Shown here: one piece after another, positions 10,755-26,934 of the stretch | Numbering within the stretch: position 1 is the stretch's first letter | Layout of the letters: every line of letters starts with the position of its first letter | Assembly (NCBI GenBank): GCA_903887415.1 | Contig: CAISPO010000037.1 | Location: 124,001-188,000, forward strand | Length of the DNA stretch: 64,000 bases | Source: an uncultured Bacteroidota bacterium | GTDB lineage: Bacteria > Bacteroidota > Bacteroidia > Chitinophagales > Chitinophagaceae | Reading direction: 5' to 3' | The notes under the pieces: model-generated | What the model saw: the letters and a program-made list of their open reading frames with translations, nothing else | Databases searched by the model: none | Told to the model about the DNA's origin: nothing | Program-made: the position numbers and the translations under genes

Positions 10755-11354
10755 TCAGCTTATCTCATTATCATACATGCCCCATTTCTTTGCGAGGCTG
10801 TTCCATTCTGTTGCAGGCAATTGTGTGGTGCCATTATAGTAACCTGCGATCTGTCTTTGGCGTAATGCCTCATAAAGTGTGATTGCGCAGGCTACAGAGA
10901 TATTCAATGATTGCACCATGCCCACCTGGGGAATTATAAAATTGCCATCGCAGTAACCAAGGCATTCTTCAGTAACCCCGGCATGTTCATTGCCAAAGAC
11001 AAGTGCAACACGCTGTGTAAGATCCAGCTCATATAGCGAATAGGACTCAACGCCAAGGTGCGTGGCGTATATTTTATCGCAATGTTTTTTTACCGCTTCC
11101 ATGCATTCCTTCGTATTGTCGTACTGGTGAATGGTGAGCCACCCTGCTGCACTGGCGGAACTTTTTTTGCCAAACCGCTTATGTCGGGAGATCACCGTAG
11201 TGAGCACAAACAGATCCTGCACTCCTATGGCATCGCAGGTGCGCATCACTGCCGATATATTGTGTGGGTCATGCACATTTTCCATTACAACCACCAGGCC
11301 GCTTTGCCGGTGGTTCAATACCTTTTTTATTTTCTCTTCCCTTTCAGGAGTCAT
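10755..11354 (-). CDS. trmH: tRNA (guanosine-18-2'-O)-methyltransferase, SpoU/TrmH family
   Basis: 199 residues with the trefoil-knot SPOUT motifs: motif 1 ENVHDPHNISAVMRTCDAIGV (Asn and Arg), motif 2 LVFGNEHAGVTEECL, and motif 3 IIPQVGMVQSLNISVACAITLYEALRQRQ. The RQSGLVVVMENVHDPHN start and the RR-like 'KKSSASAAGW' segment are those of TrmH, which methylates the ribose of G18 in tRNA with SAM. Length fits the family. It follows the phosphopantetheinyl transferase gene by 10 bases on the same strand, so the two are probably co-transcribed without an evident functional link. Confidence 0.88.
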   Translation of the reverse strand: MTPEREEKIKKVLNHRQSGLVVVMENVHDPHNISAVMRTCDAIGVQDLFVLTTVISRHKRFGKKSSASAAGWLTIHQYDNTKECMEAVKKHCDKIYATHLGVESYSLYELDLTQRVALVFGNEHAGVTEECLGYCDGNFIIPQVGMVQSLNISVACAITLYEALRQRQIAGYYNGTTQLPATEWNSLAKKWGMYDNEIS

Positions 11355-11364
11355 AAACTTTATT

Positions 11365-12015
11365 TTAACTGAGCAATTTATTTAGGTCCACTTCTTCTAT
11401 AGTTACATCCTTTTTTTTGTTCGTTGCGATACAGCAGGCATATCCTGTTTTAATAAGTACATCCTGCAAAAACCACCGCATACCATGCTCTATTACTACA
11501 TCATCGCAAACATCAATTTCTTGCAGCGGCTGAAAAACCCCCTTCCCAATCGCTTTGATACATGCTTCTTTTCTTACCCACATTTTATAAAATTCGGCAT
11601 TAATATTGTTACTGCTATTGATCTTATACCATTCCCTTTCGCTAAAGTATTCGCGCATTCCGGCAATATCCCGTTCTTTTTCCTGCTCTATGTCCACACC
11701 TATACGAGCGGCCAACCCCCCTGCGCAAAAAACGATATTCCCTGAATGAGATAAGTTGTAGTCAAAATCAGCGGATGCAAAATAAGGCTTTCCCCACCTA
11801 TTTATCTCCTGCCTGTCTATGAACAAACTATGGTCGAGGTTATGATCGCAGAGCAGTTTATAAAGTAACAATTTGCCTGCGAGTTTAGCATATTGAGTAG
11901 TGGTTGGAGGTTTTAACATTTCTTCTTTACCAATACCATTTACTTTAGCCAACAGCTTCCTATGTGCTTCTTCACTTATCGGCTCACCAATATCTATAAA
12001 ATAACCGGTTATCAT
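11365..12015 (-). CDS. Sfp-type 4'-phosphopantetheinyl transferase
   Basis: 216 residues. The Sfp/Gsp/HetI motifs are present: KPYF before YNLSHSG, IGVDIEQ (Mg-binding Asp and Glu), and the signature FYKMWVRKEACIKAIGKG with the W-x(2)-KEA-x(2)-K pattern. It transfers phosphopantetheine from CoA to the Ser of carrier domains. It is transcribed divergently from the Pls-type synthetase gene 172 bases away, whose carrier domain has the target GGHS serine, so it is its probable activator. Sfp-type size rather than the about 120 residues of AcpS argues for a role in secondary metabolism. Confidence 0.9.
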   Translation of the reverse strand: MITGYFIDIGEPISEEAHRKLLAKVNGIGKEEMLKPPTTTQYAKLAGKLLLYKLLCDHNLDHSLFIDRQEINRWGKPYFASADFDYNLSHSGNIVFCAGGLAARIGVDIEQEKERDIAGMREYFSEREWYKINSSNNINAEFYKMWVRKEACIKAIGKGVFQPLQEIDVCDDVVIEHGMRWFLQDVLIKTGYACCIATNKKKDVTIEEVDLNKLLS

Positions 12016-12037
12016 GTGGAGATAAAATAACTACAAT

Positions 12038-12053
12038 ATGGCGGTATCGCCAT
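12038..12053. promoter_or_regulatory. Palindrome in the divergent PPTase-synthetase intergenic region
   Basis: ATGGCGGTATCGCCAT is a perfect 6-bp inverted repeat with a 4-base centre, 23 bases upstream of the transferase ATG and 135 bases upstream of the synthetase ATG. It could be an operator or a small hairpin. The remainder of the gap is AT-rich with AGGAGGAG at 12127-12134, too far from the synthetase start to be its ribosome site. Confidence 0.3.
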
Positions 12054-12187
12054 CAAATTTCCCTTACAAATATCTAAGGCACGAAATTCGTATAGTAGTT
12101 ACAGTGGGACTAAAGAAATTATTACAGGAGGAGTAGAATTGTTGTAATTTTCGCTTAAATAAAAAGAATACACCCGCAGTAGTAAAT

Positions 12188-15100
12188 ATGAATCCCAGTA
12201 TAGTCCTTGGAGCTTCCCGCCCCGACCTGTTGCATGAAGAAACACTTGCAGACATATTCCGGATGTCTGCAAAGAACTTTCCGGGCAATACTGCGCTTAT
12301 TTTCGGAGATACGTCTGTCAGCTATTCTGAACTGGACCGCTGGAGCGATGCCATGGCTGATCACCTATATCAAAACGGCATTATGCCTGGCGACCCGGTG
12401 GGCCTGTGGTGGCCGCGCGGGCTGCAACTGCACGTGGCTGTACTTGGTATTGTAAAAGCAGGTGCATCTTACGTGCCACTGGATCGCGAGATGCCTGCTG
12501 AACGGGTGGAAACCGTACTTAACGAAGTAGGGGCAAAAGGATACATCAGCCAGGATAAACTCGATCTTAACTGCCCTATGTTTTCGGTTGTTCCGCAGCC
12601 AACCCCGTCCGCGGAAATTCCCATTACGATAGGAGCGAAACCTGATAACTGGGCGTATGTGCTATACACATCCGGCAGCACTGGGAAACCCAAAGGCATC
12701 CCTATTGCCCACCGGCAGATATGCCACCTGGTACGTGCAGAGCAAACCGTACTGGAAGTGCGCAGCACCGACCGCGTTTACCAGGGATTTTCTGTGTCCT
12801 TTGATATGTGGTGCGAGGAGGTTTGGATAAGTTACCTGGCCGGAGCTACTTTGTGGGTTGCAGATGCAACTACTGCAAAATCTATTGACGAGCTTGGGGA
12901 TATATTGCGCCGGCAGCATATTACTGTGCTCCATGCTGTGCCCAGCCTGCTTGCTGTGATGGAAGACGACATTTCATCTGCGTTGCGCATTGTGAACGCA
13001 GGAGGGGAGGCGTGTACCACACAAGTGCTTTCCAGGTGGTCTATACCGTCACGTAAATTTTATAACAGTTACGGGCCCACGGAAACAACCGTAACGGCTA
13101 CGCTTATAGCGCTGAAGCCGGGTGACCCGATAACGATAGGTATTCCGCTGCCCAATTATAACCTTGCGGTAGTTGATGAGCAGCTTAATATACTGCCTGT
13201 TGGCGAACGAGGAGAACTGGTGGTAACAGGTCCTGGCTTGTCCAAAGGATATATAAATCTGCCCGAACTTACGGCCCAAAAATTTGTACCGAAGCCGGCT
13301 GCGATGCCCGGATTGGCTGGTGAGACTATGTACAGAACCGGCGATGCAGCCGTAATTAATCCTGATGGCAGTATTGACTTCCAGGGGCGCTTTGACGACC
13401 AGGTGAAGCTGCGCGGATACCGCATAGAGCTGGGCGAAATTGAAAACCGGCTCAGCAACCTTACAGATATTACCGCGGCAGCGGTAGCCGTAAAAAAAGA
13501 CGCCAACGGCCAGGACCACCTCGCAGGCTATGTGGTGTGTGATGACCCGGTGACCATGAACCAGCAGCATATACGCGAAGAGCTGGCAAAGGTGCTGCCT
13601 GCCTATATGATACCCAGCGTCATCATGCAGCTATCAGAGATGCCGCGCCTGCCCAGCGGTAAAATAAACAGGAAGGCGCTGCCGATACCAGCTATGCTGC
13701 TGGAGAATGCTGGGGCGATCACTAATGAAGTGATAGACCTGGACGCGCCAATAGAAGAGCGAGTGGTAGCTGCGCTGCGAAAATTTTTCCCTAACCGTAA
13801 TATCGATCTTTCACAGGATTTCTTCACTGACCTCGGCGGACATTCTCTGCTTGCAGCTGCATTTGTATCAAAACTGCGGCGAGAAGCCAATATACCGCAG
13901 GCCGCTCTGAAAGATATTTACCTGATCCGGCCCCTGGATAAACTGGTGGAGCACTGGAAGTCCAAACCCGCTGGGGAGATGAAGGCCAAGCGCGTCTTTA
14001 ACGAGGTGCCAAAAAAACGGTTTTGGCTTTGCGGTATCGCGCAGACCATTTCCCTGCTCATGGTCTATGGCCTTTTTGCCGTGCAGATATTCTTTCCTTA
14101 CCTGGGGTATTACTATGTGGCGGAGGAAACTAAAAATACGCCCTATGCAGTAACCACTGCACTATGCCTGTTTTGCCTCATACCACCTTTATTTGCTGCA
14201 TTCACTATAGGTATCAAGTGGCTGGTTATCGGGAAGATGAAGGAGGGAGACTATCCGCTGTGGGGAAGTTATTACTTCCGGTGGTGGTTTGTGAAGACCA
14301 TGCAGCGGTTGCTGCCGGCTCAGTTTCTGAATGGCACGCCGCTATATCCCGGCTACCTGAGCCGGATGGGAGTAAAAGTGGCAAAAGACGCACAACTGGG
14401 CGCAGTGACCATAGGCGCAGAAGACCTTGTAACCATAGGCAATGATGTTAGCATCAGCTCCCGTGTAACGATCAACAATGCGTATGTGGAAGATGGTATG
14501 CTGAAGCTAAGGCGGGTGACCCTTGGCGACCACGCATACATAGGCAGCGGTGCTATACTTGGCGGCGGCACCACTGTTGAAGAATGGGGCGAGCTGCAGG
14601 ACCTCAGCTATCTGCAGGAAGGCAAGACCATAAAGACTGCGGAGGTATGGCACGGCAGTCCTGCTGCGCTTAAAGAAAAGAAAGCGATAGAAGACCTGCC
14701 TCAGCCACTATTTGTTTCCGCGGCAAGGCGGAGAAAGTATTCGCTCATCTTCACTTTATCGCTGCTTATATTTCCCTTCGTCATCCTGCTGCCCCTGCTG
14801 CCTACTATAATCATTATTCATAACATAGATAACTCCACACCCGATTACGACTTTAGCTATCTCGTCATCACGCCATCGCTGGCATTGAGCTATATCATTG
14901 TGTTTGCTGTGGTAACGGTTATCCTTACGCGTTTGCTGCAATGGGGTATAAAACCGGGCAAGTACCCTATCTACAGCATGTTTTATGTACGCAAATGGTT
15001 TGCTGACCAGTTGATGTCTTTGTCGCTTATTGTACTGCACCCTATCTACGCAACGGTTTATATATCACTGCTGTTTCGTGCGCTGGGTGCCAAAGTGGGC

Positions 15101-16129
15101 AGGAATACCGAAATATCTACCGCCAGCAGTGTTACGCATCCTTTGCTTACCATTGGCAAGAATGCATTTGTGGCAGATGCGGTAACACTAGGAGAATCGG
15201 ATGTGCGTGGCCAGCAACTGATACTTGATAATACGGTGATAGGCAATAGCAGCTTTGTGGGTAACAGTGCGCTGATACCTCAGGGCTACCAGTTACCGGG
15301 GCGTATGCTTATAGGTGTATTGTCTGTGCCACCAAGCAAGGAACAACTGGAAGCAGAGACCGCCAAAGACTGGTTTGGCTCGCCTTCTATAGCATTGCCA
15401 CGCCGCCAGGCCAGCCGCACATTTGCTACCGAGCTTACCGCCCGCCCATCAGCCACCAGGGTGCTTGCACGCAGCGTTGTAGAGTTCATCCGCATACTCA
15501 TACCCGAAACAGTGATACTGATATGCAGCATCCTATTTATCGCATATGCGCACGATCTTTTGGTTACTGAGGCATGGTGGATGATCATTTTGCAATTGCC
15601 GTTCTACTACTTGTTTTTCATGGGCCTGCCGGCATTTATTGTAACCGCAGCCCTGAAGTGGCTTACCATAGGCATTTACAAGCCCGACCAGAAGCCCATG
15701 TGGACATCAAAAGTATGGCGGAGTGAAGCCATCACCTCCACCTACGAAGCACTCTCCGTGCCCTTCCTGCTCGATTTTATGCGGGGCACACCCTGGCTAC
15801 CTGTTATTCTGCGCGTGCTGGGCATAAAAACAGGTAAGCGTGTATGGATGAACACCACCGATGTTACCGAGTACGACATGGTGCATATAGGCGACGACAC
15901 CGCCCTAAACGAAGACTGCGGCCCGCAGACGCACCTGTTTGAAGACCGCGTAATGAAAGTGGGCCCCATAAAAATAGGCAAGCGTTGCAGCATAGGCGCC
16001 GGCACCATCATCCTCTACGACAGCGAAATAGGCGACAATGTAAACGTAGATCCTCTATCCTTGGTTATGAAAGGCGAGAACCTGCAATCCAACTCCAGTT
16101 GGGGCGGCAGCCCGGTAAGGCCTGCGTAG
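12188..16129 (+). CDS. Pls/PosA-type single-module NRPS: adenylation, carrier and three TM-hexapeptide modules
   Basis: 1313 residues. Residues 1-505 are an adenylation domain: A3 LYTSGSTGKPKG (159-170), A5 NSYGPTETT (293-301), A7 YRTGD (382-386), A8 GRFDDQVKLRGYRIELGEIE (400-419), A10 LPSGKINRKALP (488-499). A carrier domain follows with S553 in DLGGHSLL. The rest is three tandem units, each a pair of TM helices (about 612-635/655-680, 852-880/892-915, 1100-1122/1130-1155) followed by a left-handed beta-helix hexapeptide region (about 725-825, 965-1065, 1210-1305). There is no thioesterase and no canonical condensation HHxxxDG. This is the architecture of epsilon-poly-lysine synthetase (Pls) and relatives, in which the terminal region joins amino acids from the carrier. 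The Sfp-type transferase is divergent next to it. By hand, the specificity residues read D-M-E-H-V-A-S-V-T plus Lys, which hints at a basic amino acid such as ornithine or lysine. Confidence 0.88.
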   Translation: MNPSIVLGASRPDLLHEETLADIFRMSAKNFPGNTALIFGDTSVSYSELDRWSDAMADHLYQNGIMPGDPVGLWWPRGLQLHVAVLGIVKAGASYVPLDREMPAERVETVLNEVGAKGYISQDKLDLNCPMFSVVPQPTPSAEIPITIGAKPDNWAYVLYTSGSTGKPKGIPIAHRQICHLVRAEQTVLEVRSTDRVYQGFSVSFDMWCEEVWISYLAGATLWVADATTAKSIDELGDILRRQHITVLHAVPSLLAVMEDDISSALRIVNAGGEACTTQVLSRWSIPSRKFYNSYGPTETTVTATLIALKPGDPITIGIPLPNYNLAVVDEQLNILPVGERGELVVTGPGLSKGYINLPELTAQKFVPKPAAMPGLAGETMYRTGDAAVINPDGSIDFQGRFDDQVKLRGYRIELGEIENRLSNLTDITAAAVAVKKDANGQDHLAGYVVCDDPVTMNQQHIREELAKVLPAYMIPSVIMQLSEMPRLPSGKINRKALPIPAMLLENAGAITNEVIDLDAPIEERVVAALRKFFPNRNIDLSQDFFTDLGGHSLLAAAFVSKLRREANIPQAALKDIYLIRPLDKLVEHWKSKPAGEMKAKRVFNEVPKKRFWLCGIAQTISLLMVYGLFAVQIFFPYLGYYYVAEETKNTPYAVTTALCLFCLIPPLFAAFTIGIKWLVIGKMKEGDYPLWGSYYFRWWFVKTMQRLLPAQFLNGTPLYPGYLSRMGVKVAKDAQLGAVTIGAEDLVTIGNDVSISSRVTINNAYVEDGMLKLRRVTLGDHAYIGSGAILGGGTTVEEWGELQDLSYLQEGKTIKTAEVWHGSPAALKEKKAIEDLPQPLFVSAARRRKYSLIFTLSLLIFPFVILLPLLPTIIIIHNIDNSTPDYDFSYLVITPSLALSYIIVFAVVTVILTRLLQWGIKPGKYPIYSMFYVRKWFADQLMSLSLIVLHPIYATVYISLLFRALGAKVGRNTEISTASSVTHPLLTIGKNAFVADAVTLGESDVRGQQLILDNTVIGNSSFVGNSALIPQGYQLPGRMLIGVLSVPPSKEQLEAETAKDWFGSPSIALPRRQASRTFATELTARPSATRVLARSVVEFIRILIPETVILICSILFIAYAHDLLVTEAWWMIILQLPFYYLFFMGLPAFIVTAALKWLTIGIYKPDQKPMWTSKVWRSEAITSTYEALSVPFLLDFMRGTPWLPVILRVLGIKTGKRVWMNTTDVTEYDMVHIGDDTALNEDCGPQTHLFEDRVMKVGPIKIGKRCSIGAGTIILYDSEIGDNVNVDPLSLVMKGENLQSNSSWGGSPVRPA

Positions 16130-19048: not shown

Positions 19049-19438
19049 TCACACATACACCCCATCCAGTTTGAACAGCGTATTACCGCCGGAGCTTAGT
19101 GATGCATTAATGCCGTAGCCGCTCTCAACTGATTTCCATGTGATCTTTACTATGGGTTGTACCTCGGGGGTAATAAATCCCAGGAACTTTACATTCCGTG
19201 CGCTGCTGAGCATTAGCGGTTTATCCAATTGTGTTTGCAGCAGCTCCTTTACCAATTCCATCATGCAAACGCCCGGCACCACAGGCTGTCCGGGGAAATG
19301 GCCTTTGAAAATGTCATGCTCCGCATTAAATACTATACGGCAGCCGTATTCATTTTCGTGTGTCTCAATATCGTGGCAGTTATAAAAATCGTTTATCAGC
19401 ACAGTAAAAAGTTTTTTATTAGTAAACATCATAATCAT
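19049..19438 (-). CDS. FabZ-like hotdog-fold dehydratase
   Basis: 129 residues from the ATG at 19438 (the frame also reaches a GTG at 19447). The hotdog dehydratase signature HDIFKGHFPGQPVVPGVCMME contains the catalytic-type His and the GHFPxxPxxPG loop of FabZ. It is close to the usual 140-150 residues. The neighbours on the same strand are kdnB and kdsB, so it may supply or modify hydroxyacyl chains for envelope lipid, but dehydratases of this shape also occur in aryl-polyene and flexirubin pathways. The gap to kdnB is filled by palindromic repeats, so co-transcription is uncertain. Confidence 0.75.
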   Translation of the reverse strand: MIMMFTNKKLFTVLINDFYNCHDIETHENEYGCRIVFNAEHDIFKGHFPGQPVVPGVCMMELVKELLQTQLDKPLMLSSARNVKFLGFITPEVQPIVKITWKSVESGYGINASLSSGGNTLFKLDGVYV

Positions 19439-19483
19439 GCAATCCACACTTTGTTTGAAAAGGCGAAATGAGAGGTGTGTTAC

Positions 19484-19539
19484 ACCTCCCCTCCTGTTTT
19501 TAGGAGGGGATGATTGTCGCTTGCGACGATCTGGGGTGG
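19484..19539. repeat. Intergenic double-hairpin palindromic repeat
   Basis: An outer arm ACCTCCCC (19484-19491) pairs with GGGGTGGT (19532-19539). Inside are a perfect 8-bp hairpin CCCCTCCT/AGGAGGGG with a GTTTTT loop, and a second one GATTGTCG CTTG CGACGATC. The nested structure is that of a REP- or MITE-like intergenic element, lying just upstream of the FabZ-like gene on the minus strand. Confidence 0.55.
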
Positions 19540-19560
19540 TTGGCTCGCGCCGTGCACACT

Positions 19561-19607
19561 ACTCATTCGACCTCACCCTCTCCTTCGGAGAGGGGCGGGG
19601 AGAGGTC
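19561..19607. repeat. Intergenic REP-like repeat, copy 1 (end of kdnB)
   Basis: The text ACTCATTCGACCTCACCCTC then a CCTTCGGAGAGG hairpin and GGGGAGAGGTC is shared with 20784-20820. The ends GACCTC and GAGGTC are complementary, so it folds. It overlaps the kdnB stop codon on the minus strand and may serve as its terminator. Confidence 0.55.
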
Positions 19608-20682
19608 ATAATTTCTCATACAGCCCACGTAGCCTGTCTCTTGTCATTATTGTTTTCCAGTCTTTTCCTAAAGCATTTTCCCAGAGCGGCACCATGCCTA
19701 GTGATACATCTATCATTGTATTGAACTGCTCATCATTAAGCCCCTTTGTTATTCCAGTAGGGATATCAATGTTGTTCTGCTCCACCATTTTATGAAAGGT
19801 ATCGACACCCTGCGGATAGAACTCGTACAGGTGGTTGAATACAATACAATTCCCGATGCCATGCTTCGTGCCAAGCAGGTAGCCCAGCCCATAGCTTACC
19901 GCATGGGCAACACCTACCTGCGAATAAGCAATGCTCATGCCGCCTGCATACGAAGCCATCATCAGTTGTTCATCGCTTTCCTCATTCCACTCCTGCTTAT
20001 GCAGGAACACCTCTTCACAAAGCTGCTGCGCCTTCTCGCCATACGACCGGCTGAACTCATTGATATACGTGCCTTCCAGCGATTCTATACAATGAATAAA
20101 GCAATCCATGCCCGTATAAAAGCGCTGGTCGGCAGGCGCGCCTTTCGTAAGCCCCGGATCCAGCACTATCTGGTCGAAGGGGGTATGGTCCGAATTCATG
20201 CCGAGTTTCCGTGCAGGGCCCGTAAGCACTGTTGTGCGCGACACCTCGGCTCCTGTGCCCGATAAAGTAGGTATCCCCACTTTGTAAACTGCGGGATGTC
20301 TTACAAGGTCCCAACCCTGATAGTCCTGCGCCCTGCCGGGGTTCGTGAGCATTATAGAAACAGCCTTTGCAATATCCATCGTTGACCCGCCGCCAATGCC
20401 GATCACCCCAGATATATTACCATGCTGTTCCTTTATTTGTTGCGCCAGTTCGTCTATATAGGCTGTCTTAGGTTCGTGTTCCACATCTGCATCTATCAGC
20501 AGGTCATTGCCCCTTATTGGTATCCGTGCTTTAAGTGCATCGTTGTTCTTAAAATAGTGATCCAGCAGAAAGATCATCGGAGCATCGCTTTTCCGGCGTG
20601 GCGCAATGATCTCATCCAGTTGGCCGAAACAGCCCCGGCCATACACCACATAATCCACCATCTTAAAATTGCGAAACTTCAT
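19606..20682 (-). CDS. kdnB: 3-deoxy-D-manno-octulosonate 8-oxidase (iron-type alcohol dehydrogenase)
   Basis: 358 residues from the ATG at 20682, chosen because a TAnnTTTG promoter at 20704-20711 lies just upstream and the extra residues before it do not look conserved. It is a group III alcohol dehydrogenase: GIGGGSTMDIAKAVSIML binds nucleotide, and metal ligands lie in TGMDCFIHCIESLEGT and VGVAHAVSYGLGYLLGTKHGIGN. The overall text follows the Shewanella KdnB pattern (FKMVDYVVYGRG at the start, TNPGRAQDYQGWDLV, GTGAEVSRTTVLTGP). KdnB oxidises C8 of Kdo so that KdnA can aminate it, giving 8-amino-Kdo for LPS. The kdsB gene directly upstream supports this; kdnA is not in the window. Confidence 0.85.
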   Translation of the reverse strand: MKFRNFKMVDYVVYGRGCFGQLDEIIAPRRKSDAPMIFLLDHYFKNNDALKARIPIRGNDLLIDADVEHEPKTAYIDELAQQIKEQHGNISGVIGIGGGSTMDIAKAVSIMLTNPGRAQDYQGWDLVRHPAVYKVGIPTLSGTGAEVSRTTVLTGPARKLGMNSDHTPFDQIVLDPGLTKGAPADQRFYTGMDCFIHCIESLEGTYINEFSRSYGEKAQQLCEEVFLHKQEWNEESDEQLMMASYAGGMSIAYSQVGVAHAVSYGLGYLLGTKHGIGNCIVFNHLYEFYPQGVDTFHKMVEQNNIDIPTGITKGLNDEQFNTMIDVSLGMVPLWENALGKDWKTIMTRDRLRGLYEKL

Positions 20683-20703
20683 ATCGGCAACCCTATTACA
20701 GCG

Positions 20704-20711
20704 CAAAAATA
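20704..20711 (-). promoter_or_regulatory. Bacteroidota -7 promoter element for kdnB
   Basis: Read on the minus strand this is TATTTTTG, with a TTTG 16 bases further upstream. It lies 21 bases before the kdnB ATG and supports that start. Confidence 0.5.
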
Positions 20712-20783
20712 GTGTTTAGTTACTTTGCAAAGAATATTTGTAAATGATGTACCTATCTCAACCGGGAAAATACAGTTCAAATA

Positions 20784-20820
20784 ACTCACTCGACCTCACC
20801 CTCCCCTTGGGGCAGGGGTC
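20784..20820. repeat. Intergenic REP-like repeat, copy 2 (end of kdsB)
   Basis: ACTCACTCGACCTCACCCTC followed by CCCTTGGGGCAGGGGTC is a diverged copy of 19561-19607. Both copies sit exactly at the 3' end of a minus-strand gene, in the same orientation. CCCCTTGGGG forms the core hairpin. Confidence 0.55.
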
Positions 20821-21554
20821 TATTCCCACCCATTCTTATTCATCAATTCCTCTGCGCGCAACATATCTTCGGGGGTATCGATCTCCACACCCATGTATCG
20901 GGTAATGGCCATCCGTATAGGCACCCCATGCTCCAGGAACCGTAGGCACTCTATTTTTTCCACAGCCTCCAGCGGCGTCATTGGCCAGTTAGTGAAATCC
21001 AATAGTGCCTTTTTTCTAAAGGCATAAACGCCTATATGCTCATAATAAGGAATACTCATCTCCGCATTTCGGGGGTAGGGGATCACACTCCGTGAAAAAA
21101 ACAAGGCATTGTTATTTATATCAAGCGCGACCTTCACATAGTTGGGGTCAATAATTAATTCAGGATCCGTGAGCAACTGCACCAGTGATGCAACCTGTAA
21201 ATCTTCCTCCTTAAATAAATTGATCAGTTGCGCCAGCGGTTCTTTTTGCACGAATGGCTCATCGCCCTGAATATTGACAAACACATCTGCGTCCATGTCA
21301 GCCGCTACCTCGGCTATGCGGTCAGTGCCGCTCTCATACGGGCCTTTACTTTTCATAGCCCTTCCGCCATGTTTCACTACTTCATTCAGTATGTCATCAC
21401 TGTCCGTTACTACGACCACTTCATCAAACAAACCGGCGCAAACTGCCGACTCGTAAGTGCGCCTGATAACACTCTTGCCTTTCAACAGCGCAAGCAACTT
21501 TGAGGGGAAACGGGTAGCGCCAAGGCGCGCTGGTATCAGTGCAATAACTTTCAT
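20820..21554 (-). CDS. kdsB: 3-deoxy-manno-octulosonate cytidylyltransferase
   Basis: 244 residues from the ATG at 21554 (MKVIALIPARLGATRFP), which is the classic KdsB start; the longer frame adds nine unlike residues. Motifs: IPARLGATRFPSKLL (CTP-binding), YESGTDRIAEV, VNIQGDEPF, and the C-terminal IGVYAFRKK, PLEAVEKIECLRFLEHG, EIDTPEDM. It activates Kdo, or 8-amino-Kdo in organisms with KdnA/KdnB, as the CMP-sugar for lipid A-core assembly. It is upstream of kdnB on the same strand, which makes the 8-amino sugar a likely substrate. Confidence 0.93.
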   Translation of the reverse strand: MKVIALIPARLGATRFPSKLLALLKGKSVIRRTYESAVCAGLFDEVVVVTDSDDILNEVVKHGGRAMKSKGPYESGTDRIAEVAADMDADVFVNIQGDEPFVQKEPLAQLINLFKEEDLQVASLVQLLTDPELIIDPNYVKVALDINNNALFFSRSVIPYPRNAEMSIPYYEHIGVYAFRKKALLDFTNWPMTPLEAVEKIECLRFLEHGVPIRMAITRYMGVEIDTPEDMLRAEELMNKNGWE

Positions 21555-21594
21555 AACTGAGCTGTATAAGTGCCGCATCACCGGCTTCCAGGTA

Positions 21595-25377: not shown

Positions 25378-26934
25378 CTAGGCCGAGACCACATGCCGTA
25401 CCTTCTTCTTATCCAGGTACGCTTCCCAGTCCTGCAACTGCGCTCCTTTCAGCACTCGTGGGAACTTGCTCATCGCACCCTCTTTGCCCTTTGCACGCAA
25501 ATAGCCAATGAACACGTTTTCCGGCAGTATCTCCAGGAATATCTCCTTCAGCGCTGAAGTGCGCTCTACTTCGTAGTCGTCGTTTAGTTTGCAAAGCGTT
25601 TCATCAAGCAATGCCTTTAATTTCTCAGCGTTCACATTTTCATTGTCGCAGCCTATGTACCACTGGTGCGCAAACAGGCCATCGTGCTTCAATCCTGCAA
25701 CTGCAAATTCGCGAATGGTAATATTTAGCTTCTTTGAAACTATCTCTATTGCCTTGTTCATATTGTCCACCGACATGTGCTCACCGCAAAGGCTTAGAAA
25801 TTGCTTGGTGCGGCCCACTATCGCTATCTCATGCTCTGTGGCGCTGGTGAACCGTACCACATCGCCTATCAGGTACCGCCATGCGCCGGCACAGGTACTC
25901 AGCACAACGGCATATTCCTCGCCTTCCTGCACTTCGCTCACTTTGTATATTTCAGGGTTTTCCCTTGGGTTGCCTTCTTCATCAAAGTTCTGCTCGTTGA
26001 AAGGTATGAACTCAAAGAAGATTCCCGCATTCAGCACCAATTTTATTCCTGCATCCGGCCTCGCCTGGAACCCAAAAGAACCTTCGGAAGCCATGTAGGT
26101 TTCAATGAACGTAACCTTTTTCTTGCCCCAAAGTTTTTTAAAGCTCTCCCGGTATGGCTCCATAGATACACCACCATGTATATATACACTCAGGTTAGGC
26201 CATATCTCGTGTATGTTCTTTACATTATGATGCTTAATAACCCGCTCCAATACTATCTGCACCCATGCCGGCACACCGCATATTGTACCTACATCCCACT
26301 GGTCCGCCTTTTCAACGATCAGCTTTATCCGGTCTTCCCATTTAGGGCGCTTTGATATGCGTTGTCCGGGTTTATATAAGAGTGAGGACATCCAGCGGGG
26401 CATGTTCTTTGCACTGATGCCGCTCATATCGCCCTCATAGTATTCGCCTTTTTCAAATAAGGAGGTTGTTCCGCCGAGCATCAGGATACCCTTCTCAAAA
26501 GCCACGGGGGGGATCTGGAAGTTGGCCATGCTGTATAACTGCTTGAAGCCCACTTTCTTGATCGACTTTATCATATCCTGGGTTACAGGTATGTGCTTGC
26601 TCGCAGACTCAGATGTGCCCGAACTAAGCGCGAAATACTTCACTTTTCCCGGCCATGTCACATTTTCCTCCCCATTCTGGCAGCGGTGCCACCACTTATC
26701 GTGCATATCAGTGTAGGTGTGCACAGGCACCCGCTCCCTGAAAGCCTTCATAAAGTCTATCTCCTTGCTCAGAATATCCCCAAACCCATAGTGTTTTCCG
26801 AAAGCAGTGTACTGGCCCCGTTCCAGCAACTGGCGTAACGCGTGGCGTTGATATGTTTGCGGTGTTGCCACCGGTAAATTGAACTGTTTCCGAAGCTGTA
26901 ACGAACGAGATATCAGATTCCCTAACAATGCCAT
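25378..26934 (-). CDS. GH3-family acyl-adenylating protein
   Basis: 518 residues covering the GH3 family end to end: ALRQLLERGQYTAFGKHYGF and PVHTYTDMHDKWW near the start, the ATP-type loop FALSSGTSESASKHIPVT, YMASEGSFGFQ, and the C-terminal GDVVRFTS, IVGRTKQFLSLCGEHMS. GH3 proteins adenylate a carboxylate and join it to an amino group; in plants the substrates are auxin and jasmonate. The role in Bacteroidota is not established and no pathway partner is adjacent. AGGAG precedes the ATG by six bases, and a TAAATTTG element lies upstream. Confidence 0.88.
   Translation of the reverse strand: MALLGNLISRSLQLRKQFNLPVATPQTYQRHALRQLLERGQYTAFGKHYGFGDILSKEIDFMKAFRERVPVHTYTDMHDKWWHRCQNGEENVTWPGKVKYFALSSGTSESASKHIPVTQDMIKSIKKVGFKQLYSMANFQIPPVAFEKGILMLGGTTSLFEKGEYYEGDMSGISAKNMPRWMSSLLYKPGQRISKRPKWEDRIKLIVEKADQWDVGTICGVPAWVQIVLERVIKHHNVKNIHEIWPNLSVYIHGGVSMEPYRESFKKLWGKKKVTFIETYMASEGSFGFQARPDAGIKLVLNAGIFFEFIPFNEQNFDEEGNPRENPEIYKVSEVQEGEEYAVVLSTCAGAWRYLIGDVVRFTSATEHEIAIVGRTKQFLSLCGEHMSVDNMNKAIEIVSKKLNITIREFAVAGLKHDGLFAHQWYIGCDNENVNAEKLKALLDETLCKLNDDYEVERTSALKEIFLEILPENVFIGYLRAKGKEGAMSKFPRVLKGAQLQDWEAYLDKKKVRHVVSA

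Follow-up and report, generated by a model that had tools for sequence, protein, structure and literature searches.

A PosA-type membrane peptide synthetase with an ornithine-type pocket code in an uncultured Bacteroidota bacterium, and its recurrent partner genes

The stretch analysed here, referred to as the window, comprises 64,000 nucleotides from an uncultured Bacteroidota bacterium (contig CAISPO010000037.1, positions 124,001 to 188,000) and carries a 1313-residue membrane nonribosomal peptide synthetase (NRPS), which is a further member of the described Pls/PosA family. The best full explanation of this open reading frame (ORF), to which a probability of about 0.8 is assigned, is a PosA-type synthetase of a cationic homo-poly-amino acid, giving short delta-poly-L-ornithine. 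The useful additions of the analysis are an ornithine prediction at the level of the pocket code, by which a concrete substrate can be named, and the association of the synthetase with a GNAT acetyltransferase.

Architecture of the synthetase

The synthetase is composed of an adenylation (A) domain, a carrier domain and three membrane units, arranged as follows.

12188..16129, plus strand: PosA-type membrane NRPS, 1313 residues, stop included, ATG start (TIGR02353, pocket code, trees)
12188..13693, plus strand: A domain, residues ~1–502 (TIGR01733, 387 bits, cut-off 317)
13790..13891, plus strand: carrier domain core, residues 535–568, with GGHSL (PF00550, 23.7 bits, cut-off 20.8)
14021..14707, plus strand: unit 1, residues 612–840, hydrophobic pair 612–641/651–682 and hexapeptide unit (hydropathy, alignment of hidden Markov models (HMM–HMM))
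14732..15427, plus strand: unit 2, residues 849–1080, hydrophobic pair 849–882/888–922 and hexapeptide unit (hydropathy, HMM–HMM)
15470..16126, plus strand: unit 3, residues 1095–1313, hydrophobic pair 1095–1129/1132–1163 and hexapeptide unit (hydropathy, HMM–HMM)

This layout had been proposed in an earlier, sequence-only reading of the locus, and it is confirmed by TIGR01733, PF00550, hydropathy and HMM–HMM alignment. In the profile search, AMP-binding and PP-binding were matched in the synthetase, with no condensation or thioesterase family among the matches; the HHxxxDG motif is not found in its sequence either, as that reading had noted, and the single GxSxG (residue 350) is situated within the A domain. 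Ser553 in the GGHSL of the carrier is the presumed phosphopantetheine site. The sequence-only reading was to be given up if the C-terminal part bore no similarity to the Pls/PosA terminal region; residues 618–1310 match TIGR02353 (NRPS_term_dom) with 660.2 bits against a cut-off of 423.1, and the reading withstood this check. Its claim of an undescribed system is rejected, since Pls/PosA is the name that NCBIfam already gives TIGR02353, and the synthesis of delta-poly-L-ornithine by PosA of A. baumannii is published (PMC10522769).

On the Kyte–Doolittle scale, three hydrophobic pairs are seen (612–682, 849–922 and 1095–1163), the helices being drawn from hydropathy only, and a further hydrophobic segment at 942–966 has no place in the six-helix picture. 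The three units align with each other by HMM–HMM at probabilities of 99.4–99.9%, and are therefore regarded as an internal triplication; unit 3 also contains a PF00132 match of 39.7 bits. The G+C content of window positions 12001–16000, the stretch of the synthetase, is 0.506, compared with 0.411–0.482 in the other 4-kb bins.

Pocket code and predicted substrate

In an 88-sequence alignment, the pocket of the A domain is formed by D206, M207, E210, H249, N270, G272, S294, V302, T303 and K492, giving the code DMEHNGSVTK. The A. baumannii homologue in the same alignment reads DMEHNGTVSK, which is the published PosA code (PMC10522769), and the register is thereby checked. Eight of the ten positions are identical between the window synthetase and PosA, and the remaining two are Ser/Thr swaps. 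Both the Met at position 2 and the Glu at position 3 of the ornithine-type code are present; in PosA, the former is important for substrate length and the latter is essential (PMC10522769). The synthetase does not carry the lysine-type code of the Pls subgroup (DAES...). Against the PDB, residues 180–324 match the PosA crystal chains best (162.7 bits) and Pls second (100.1 bits). L-ornithine is the best prediction for the substrate and, on the strength of the pocket code, can be named with fair confidence where the sequence-only reading had left it as one amino acid; the homopolymer of a single amino acid which that reading foresaw is supported as the likely, predicted product.

The same type of code prevails among the relatives. 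For the comparison, 80 of 118 confirmed loci were kept, and 78 Bacteroidota sequences could be read: the window, 72 of the 80 loci (in the other eight the ORF did not exceed 1250 residues) and five from a phylum-wide sample. DMEHNG[ST]V[ST]K is found in 76 of them, DMESNGSVSK in one and DAESIGTVIK in one. Elsewhere in the 88-sequence alignment, the lysine-type members read DAESIGTV[VI]K, four others start with DFE, and the Azospirillum and Rhizobium (L146) members have DLEDIG codes. The phylum-sample locus with the lysine-like DAESIGTVIK (L107) branches outside the main Bacteroidota clade and, by its sequence, is a candidate poly-lysine maker within Bacteroidota.

Phylogeny and distribution

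Midpoint-rooted trees of 37 sequences were derived from the full protein, the A domain only and the C-terminal body. In all three trees, the Bacteroidota clade (own support 0.89–0.95, L107 outside) joins PosA, Rhizobium and Azospirillum at 0.999–1.0, and the Pls branch stands apart from this grouping. The Chitinophaga synthetases are located next to the window clade in the full tree (0.90) and the C-terminal tree (0.96), but not in the A-only tree; L105 and L101, with zero branch lengths, are apparently one sequence. The sequence-only reading had described the layout as best known from actinomycetes. The family holds, but among characterised relatives it is the proteobacterial PosA that comes closest, ahead of Pls, and an actinomycete-like Pls is rejected on account of the different code and the different branch.

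The closest synthetase records come from Bacteroidetes/Chitinophagaceae metagenome-assembled genomes (MAGs), with up to 95% identity, and the closest isolate is Flavipsychrobacter stenotrophus RB1R16, with 75% identity. From these nearest records the window is inferred to belong to the Flavipsychrobacter clade, and the Bacteroidota host named by the sequence-only reading agrees with them. Within this genus, the synthetase is present over cut-off in 32 of 35 genomes, including 24 of the 25 that are ≥90% complete and ≤5% contaminated; it does not reach the cut-off in any of 15 genomes sampled from the order's other families, and does so in 6 of the 395 genomes of the phylum-wide sample, the window's own included. 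Relatives occur in records named Chitinophaga, Mucilaginibacter, Chryseobacterium, Taibaiella, Niabella, Ferruginibacter and Edaphocola. The loci were grouped by record title and tree into the clade, a Mucilaginibacter-like group and a Chryseobacterium group, with unnamed MAGs included. The ornithine-type branch of the family is thus extended across Bacteroidota, with a readable code.

C-terminal body and putative active site

The C-terminal body (residues 605–1313) gives only weak matches to hexapeptide proteins among the PDB sequences, with a best E of 4.5e-6. For PosA, a three-fold pseudo-trimer of this body has been predicted (PMC10522769). Among 18 diverse members, 25 C-terminal positions are invariant, five of them in unit 1, eight in unit 2, including D997 and N1026, and 12 in unit 3. 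The sole invariant His, H1249 (bases 15932–15934), lies in unit 3; in pairwise unit alignments judged by eye, its counterparts are Ala (unit 1) and Ser (unit 2). This conservation pattern suggests that the pseudo-trimer harbors one asymmetric active site, probably in unit 3, in place of three separate condensation domains.

The adjoining phosphopantetheinyl transferase

Upstream of the synthetase, two further features are situated.

11365..12015, minus strand: Sfp-type 4'-phosphopantetheinyl transferase (PPTase), 216 residues, divergent, ATG start (PF01648, 58.9 bits, cut-off 25)
12016..12187, no strand: divergent intergenic region, 172 bases (read from sequence), presumably holding both promoters

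Both ORFs lie at the positions that the sequence-only reading gave them, 12188..16129 on the plus strand and 11365..12015 on the minus strand, and its Sfp-type assignment is upheld by PF01648. The minimal self-contained system that it saw in the pair is too neat, however: among the other clade loci, 29 extend at least 1 kb upstream, and in 27 of these no adjoining PPTase was found. Linked PPTases were counted through a BLAST family, and since PPTases diverge fast, every such count is a minimum; between the window and L023, the PPTases share 67% identity and the synthetases 95%. Elsewhere, 10 of 23 Mucilaginibacter-like loci have a divergent PPTase upstream of the synthetase, and 9 of 17 Chryseobacterium-group loci have one downstream. 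Of nine annotated plasmid stretches, two (Sphingomonas and Rhizobium) carry a PPTase immediately after the synthetase, on its strand. The window PPTase groups with the synthetase-linked Mucilaginibacter-like PPTases at a node support of 0.88, the deeper nodes being weak.

In the own genome, PF01648 is matched twice, by the window copy and by a 238-residue ORF on another contig, and there are four other PP-binding matches. Among the good-quality genomes of the genus with a synthetase, 21 of 24 have two or three PF01648 matches, and G011, G016 and G443 have one each; G437, the sole good-quality member without a synthetase, also has one. From such counts per genome, a link of a second PPTase with the synthetase inside the genus could not be proven. 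Overall, the pairing is recurrent but loose, and the PPTase is an on-and-off partner.

In the window, L023 and L034, the PPTase is situated between a TrmH-like gene (10755–11354 in the window) and the synthetase, and in a further 16 clade loci no other ORF separates the TrmH-like gene from the synthetase downstream of it, an arrangement that is read as gain or loss of the PPTase. As a functional partner, the TrmH-like gene was rejected: it is upstream in 18 of 33 clade loci, PPTase between or not, and the other clade loci differ. Its position looks like plain synteny, since it is kept with or without the intervening PPTase and replaced elsewhere.

The GNAT acetyltransferase

Downstream of the synthetase and on the same strand, a 160-residue GNAT (PF00583, 38 bits) occurs in 20 of the 80 loci. 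Two copies are located as follows.

G000:C43:23296-23766 (L166:6210-6773): GNAT of the own genome, 41% identity, unlinked, on a contig other than that of the synthetase
L083:14046-14525: GNAT copy

The association is closest in a genus called Chryseobacterium-like, because its member G134 branches with Chryseobacterium loci. The synthetase is found there at E 1e-60 in 30 of 158 genomes, 29 of them over cut-off, and the identical 30 genomes carry the GNAT, which shares contig and strand with the synthetase and lies within ~215 bases of it. Owing to this adjacency, the 30 genomes count mostly as a single linked unit and not as independent observations. The thirtieth synthetase, in G667, is a partial match with an internal stop. 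In G667 and G670 of this genus, a partial stop-bearing synthetase and a GNAT frame with a stop are observed, possibly a single-genome decay of the module.

In the 395-genome phylum sample, the GNAT is present in two genomes, both with the synthetase, and in 0 of the 389 without it, the GNAT and synthetase samples being taken as one because the displayed handles agree; it was not found in four of the six synthetase genomes. In a class sample, it occurs in 1 of 99 genomes, the own genome. Within the window's genus, the GNAT is carried by 32 of 35 genomes, unlinked to the synthetase: 30 have both, two the synthetase only (G002, G004), two the GNAT only (G434, G437) and one neither (G014), a cross-table that is weak evidence alone because the genomes are close kin. 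Four clade GNATs, the own copy not among them, group with the synthetase-linked Chitinophaga GNATs at 0.998.

Several counts speak against a general role of the GNAT. It is present in 11 of the 37 genomes that were chosen for their synthetase and searched (L065 was left out), and in none of 21 Mucilaginibacter-like genomes, several of which are probably incomplete MAGs. Furthermore, the synthetase is missing from G437 (99% complete), a GNAT carrier, and the GNAT from G002 (100% complete), a synthetase carrier. The self-contained pair of the sequence-only reading is thus also too neat in that a GNAT tracks the synthetase in some lineages and not in others.

In a Sphingomonas plasmid (L145:2938-8053), synthetase, PPTase and GNAT follow consecutively, and this GNAT gives no phmmer match at E 10 to 20 Bacteroidota GNATs. 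As no similarity is detectable, the two lineages may have recruited GNATs separately. Among solved structures, one weak match to the GNAT is listed (E 0.002), and no NCBIfam family is over cut-off in the three copies examined. Loci L167 and L168, taken up for the surroundings of the GNAT, do not enter the analysis. The GNAT is read here, on occurrence and gene order, as a lineage-specific partner of the synthetase. It is possibly a self-protection enzyme, its chemistry being a guess; among the open-licence papers listed by the searches, no acetyltransferase in poly-lysine self-resistance and no GNAT link was found. The pls operon of Streptomyces also encodes a peptidase that degrades the polymer, for which a role in self-protection has been postulated (PMC8117764). 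The GNAT link is a lead on how producers tolerate their own polycation.

Proposed pathway and alternative explanations

In the proposed pathway, a PPTase, either the window copy or the second PF01648 protein of the genome, would place phosphopantetheine on Ser553. The A domain would activate L-ornithine and load the carrier, and the membrane-embedded three-unit body would link each ornithine by its delta-amine to the alpha-carboxyl of its neighbour, so that short delta-poly-L-ornithine chains form at the inner membrane. The GNAT would be part of this pathway in several lineages, the window's genus probably among them, and may protect the producer or cap the chain by N-acetylating the polycation. 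A farther-reaching version is offered tentatively, with the odds somewhat against it: in part of Bacteroidota, synthetase, PPTase and a specific GNAT would form a three-part module in which the GNAT N-acetylates the polymer, with the effect either that producers neutralise their own polycation or that an acetylated poly-ornithine arises which has yet to be described. For the Flavipsychrobacter clade, with its near-core synthetase and unlinked GNAT, this version would make the polymer a permanent part of the envelope instead of an antibiotic deployed now and then.

A number of points weigh against delta-poly-L-ornithine. The polymer is assumed as the product; no such product from Bacteroidota was found among the open-licence papers listed by the searches, and 'Bacteroid', 'Chryseobacterium', 'Flavobacter' and 'Chitinophag' do not occur in the main text of the PosA paper, the supplements of which list more homologues (PMC10522769). 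The PPTase adjoins in only two of the 29 other clade loci. The tree by itself does not give the substrate, as Rhizobium and Azospirillum, with a different code, adjoin PosA, Sphingomonas has an ornithine-type code yet branches outside, and PosA's own placement in the A-only tree has a support of 0.16. Pocket codes can also mislead as predictors: PosA binds lysine as well, in crystals, the single mutation M218A raised its lysine use, and a Bdellovibrionales homologue with another code took arginine (PMC10522769). The latter results, together with the lysine-like code of L107, would fit a synthetase of the same family acting on lysine, diaminobutyrate or a modified diamine, with an epsilon-poly-lysine-like or other polymer as the product. 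Such a substrate is improbable, given the Met at position 2, where lysine-type members have Ala, the ornithine-type remainder of the pocket, and the separation of the Bacteroidota clade from Pls.

It is also improbable that the enzyme transfers a single activated diamino acid to a lipid, glycan or protein of the membrane, so that a cell-envelope modification and no free polymer results. An antibiotic would not usually be encoded by 32 of 35 genomes of a genus, and the weak resemblance of the C-terminal body to hexapeptide proteins would suit such an enzyme; however, the characterised members make homo-oligomers or homopolymers (PMC10522769, Discussion), and only the PPTase and the GNAT are common across groups at a fixed place (80 loci, ORFs ≥60 residues). 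Concerning the partner gene, the window PPTase might serve another carrier protein and stand beside the synthetase by coincidence, for which its rarity in the clade and the four other PP-binding matches of the genome could be cited. This is unlikely in view of the linkage in other lineages and orientations, among the Mucilaginibacter-like and Chryseobacterium groups and on the two plasmids, and of the single PF01648 match in G437 set beside the two or three in most synthetase-bearing genomes, G011, G016 and G443 excepted.

Other genes of the window

At 19049–21581, a FabA-like dehydratase, an iron-containing alcohol dehydrogenase and a KdsB-like cytidylyltransferase are encoded on one strand; for the alcohol dehydrogenase, no listed NCBIfam equivalog is over cut-off. 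This gene group is reminiscent of an 8-amino-Kdo-type pathway. In addition, a GH3-family protein (PF03321, 129 bits) is located at 25378–26934.

Comparison with known systems

The plasmid-borne TIGR02353 synthetases of Azospirillum, Rhizobium and Sphingomonas share the architecture of the window synthetase. Azospirillum and Rhizobium (L146) differ in their DLEDIG codes, whereas Sphingomonas resembles it in the ornithine-type code and in having PPTase and GNAT neighbours, although its GNAT is the one dissimilar to those of Bacteroidota. Pls, the epsilon-poly-L-lysine synthetase of Streptomyces (A domain in PDB 7WEW), agrees in family and architecture. Compared with the window synthetase, an annotated Pls has 31.4% identity, a lysine code and a separate branch, and both Streptomyces and Corynebacterium have pls and a peptidase gene in one operon (PMC8117764); in L143, an M1 metallopeptidase adjoins pls. 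In the case of PosA, posA is described as a single-gene operon without obvious neighbours (PMC10522769), whereas the window synthetase adjoins a divergent PPTase and has a GNAT elsewhere in the genome. The plasmid-borne A. baumannii homologue with the published PosA code is 38.5% identical to the window synthetase, and PosA corresponds to it in domain order, length, TIGR02353 body and, bar two Ser/Thr swaps, pocket code.

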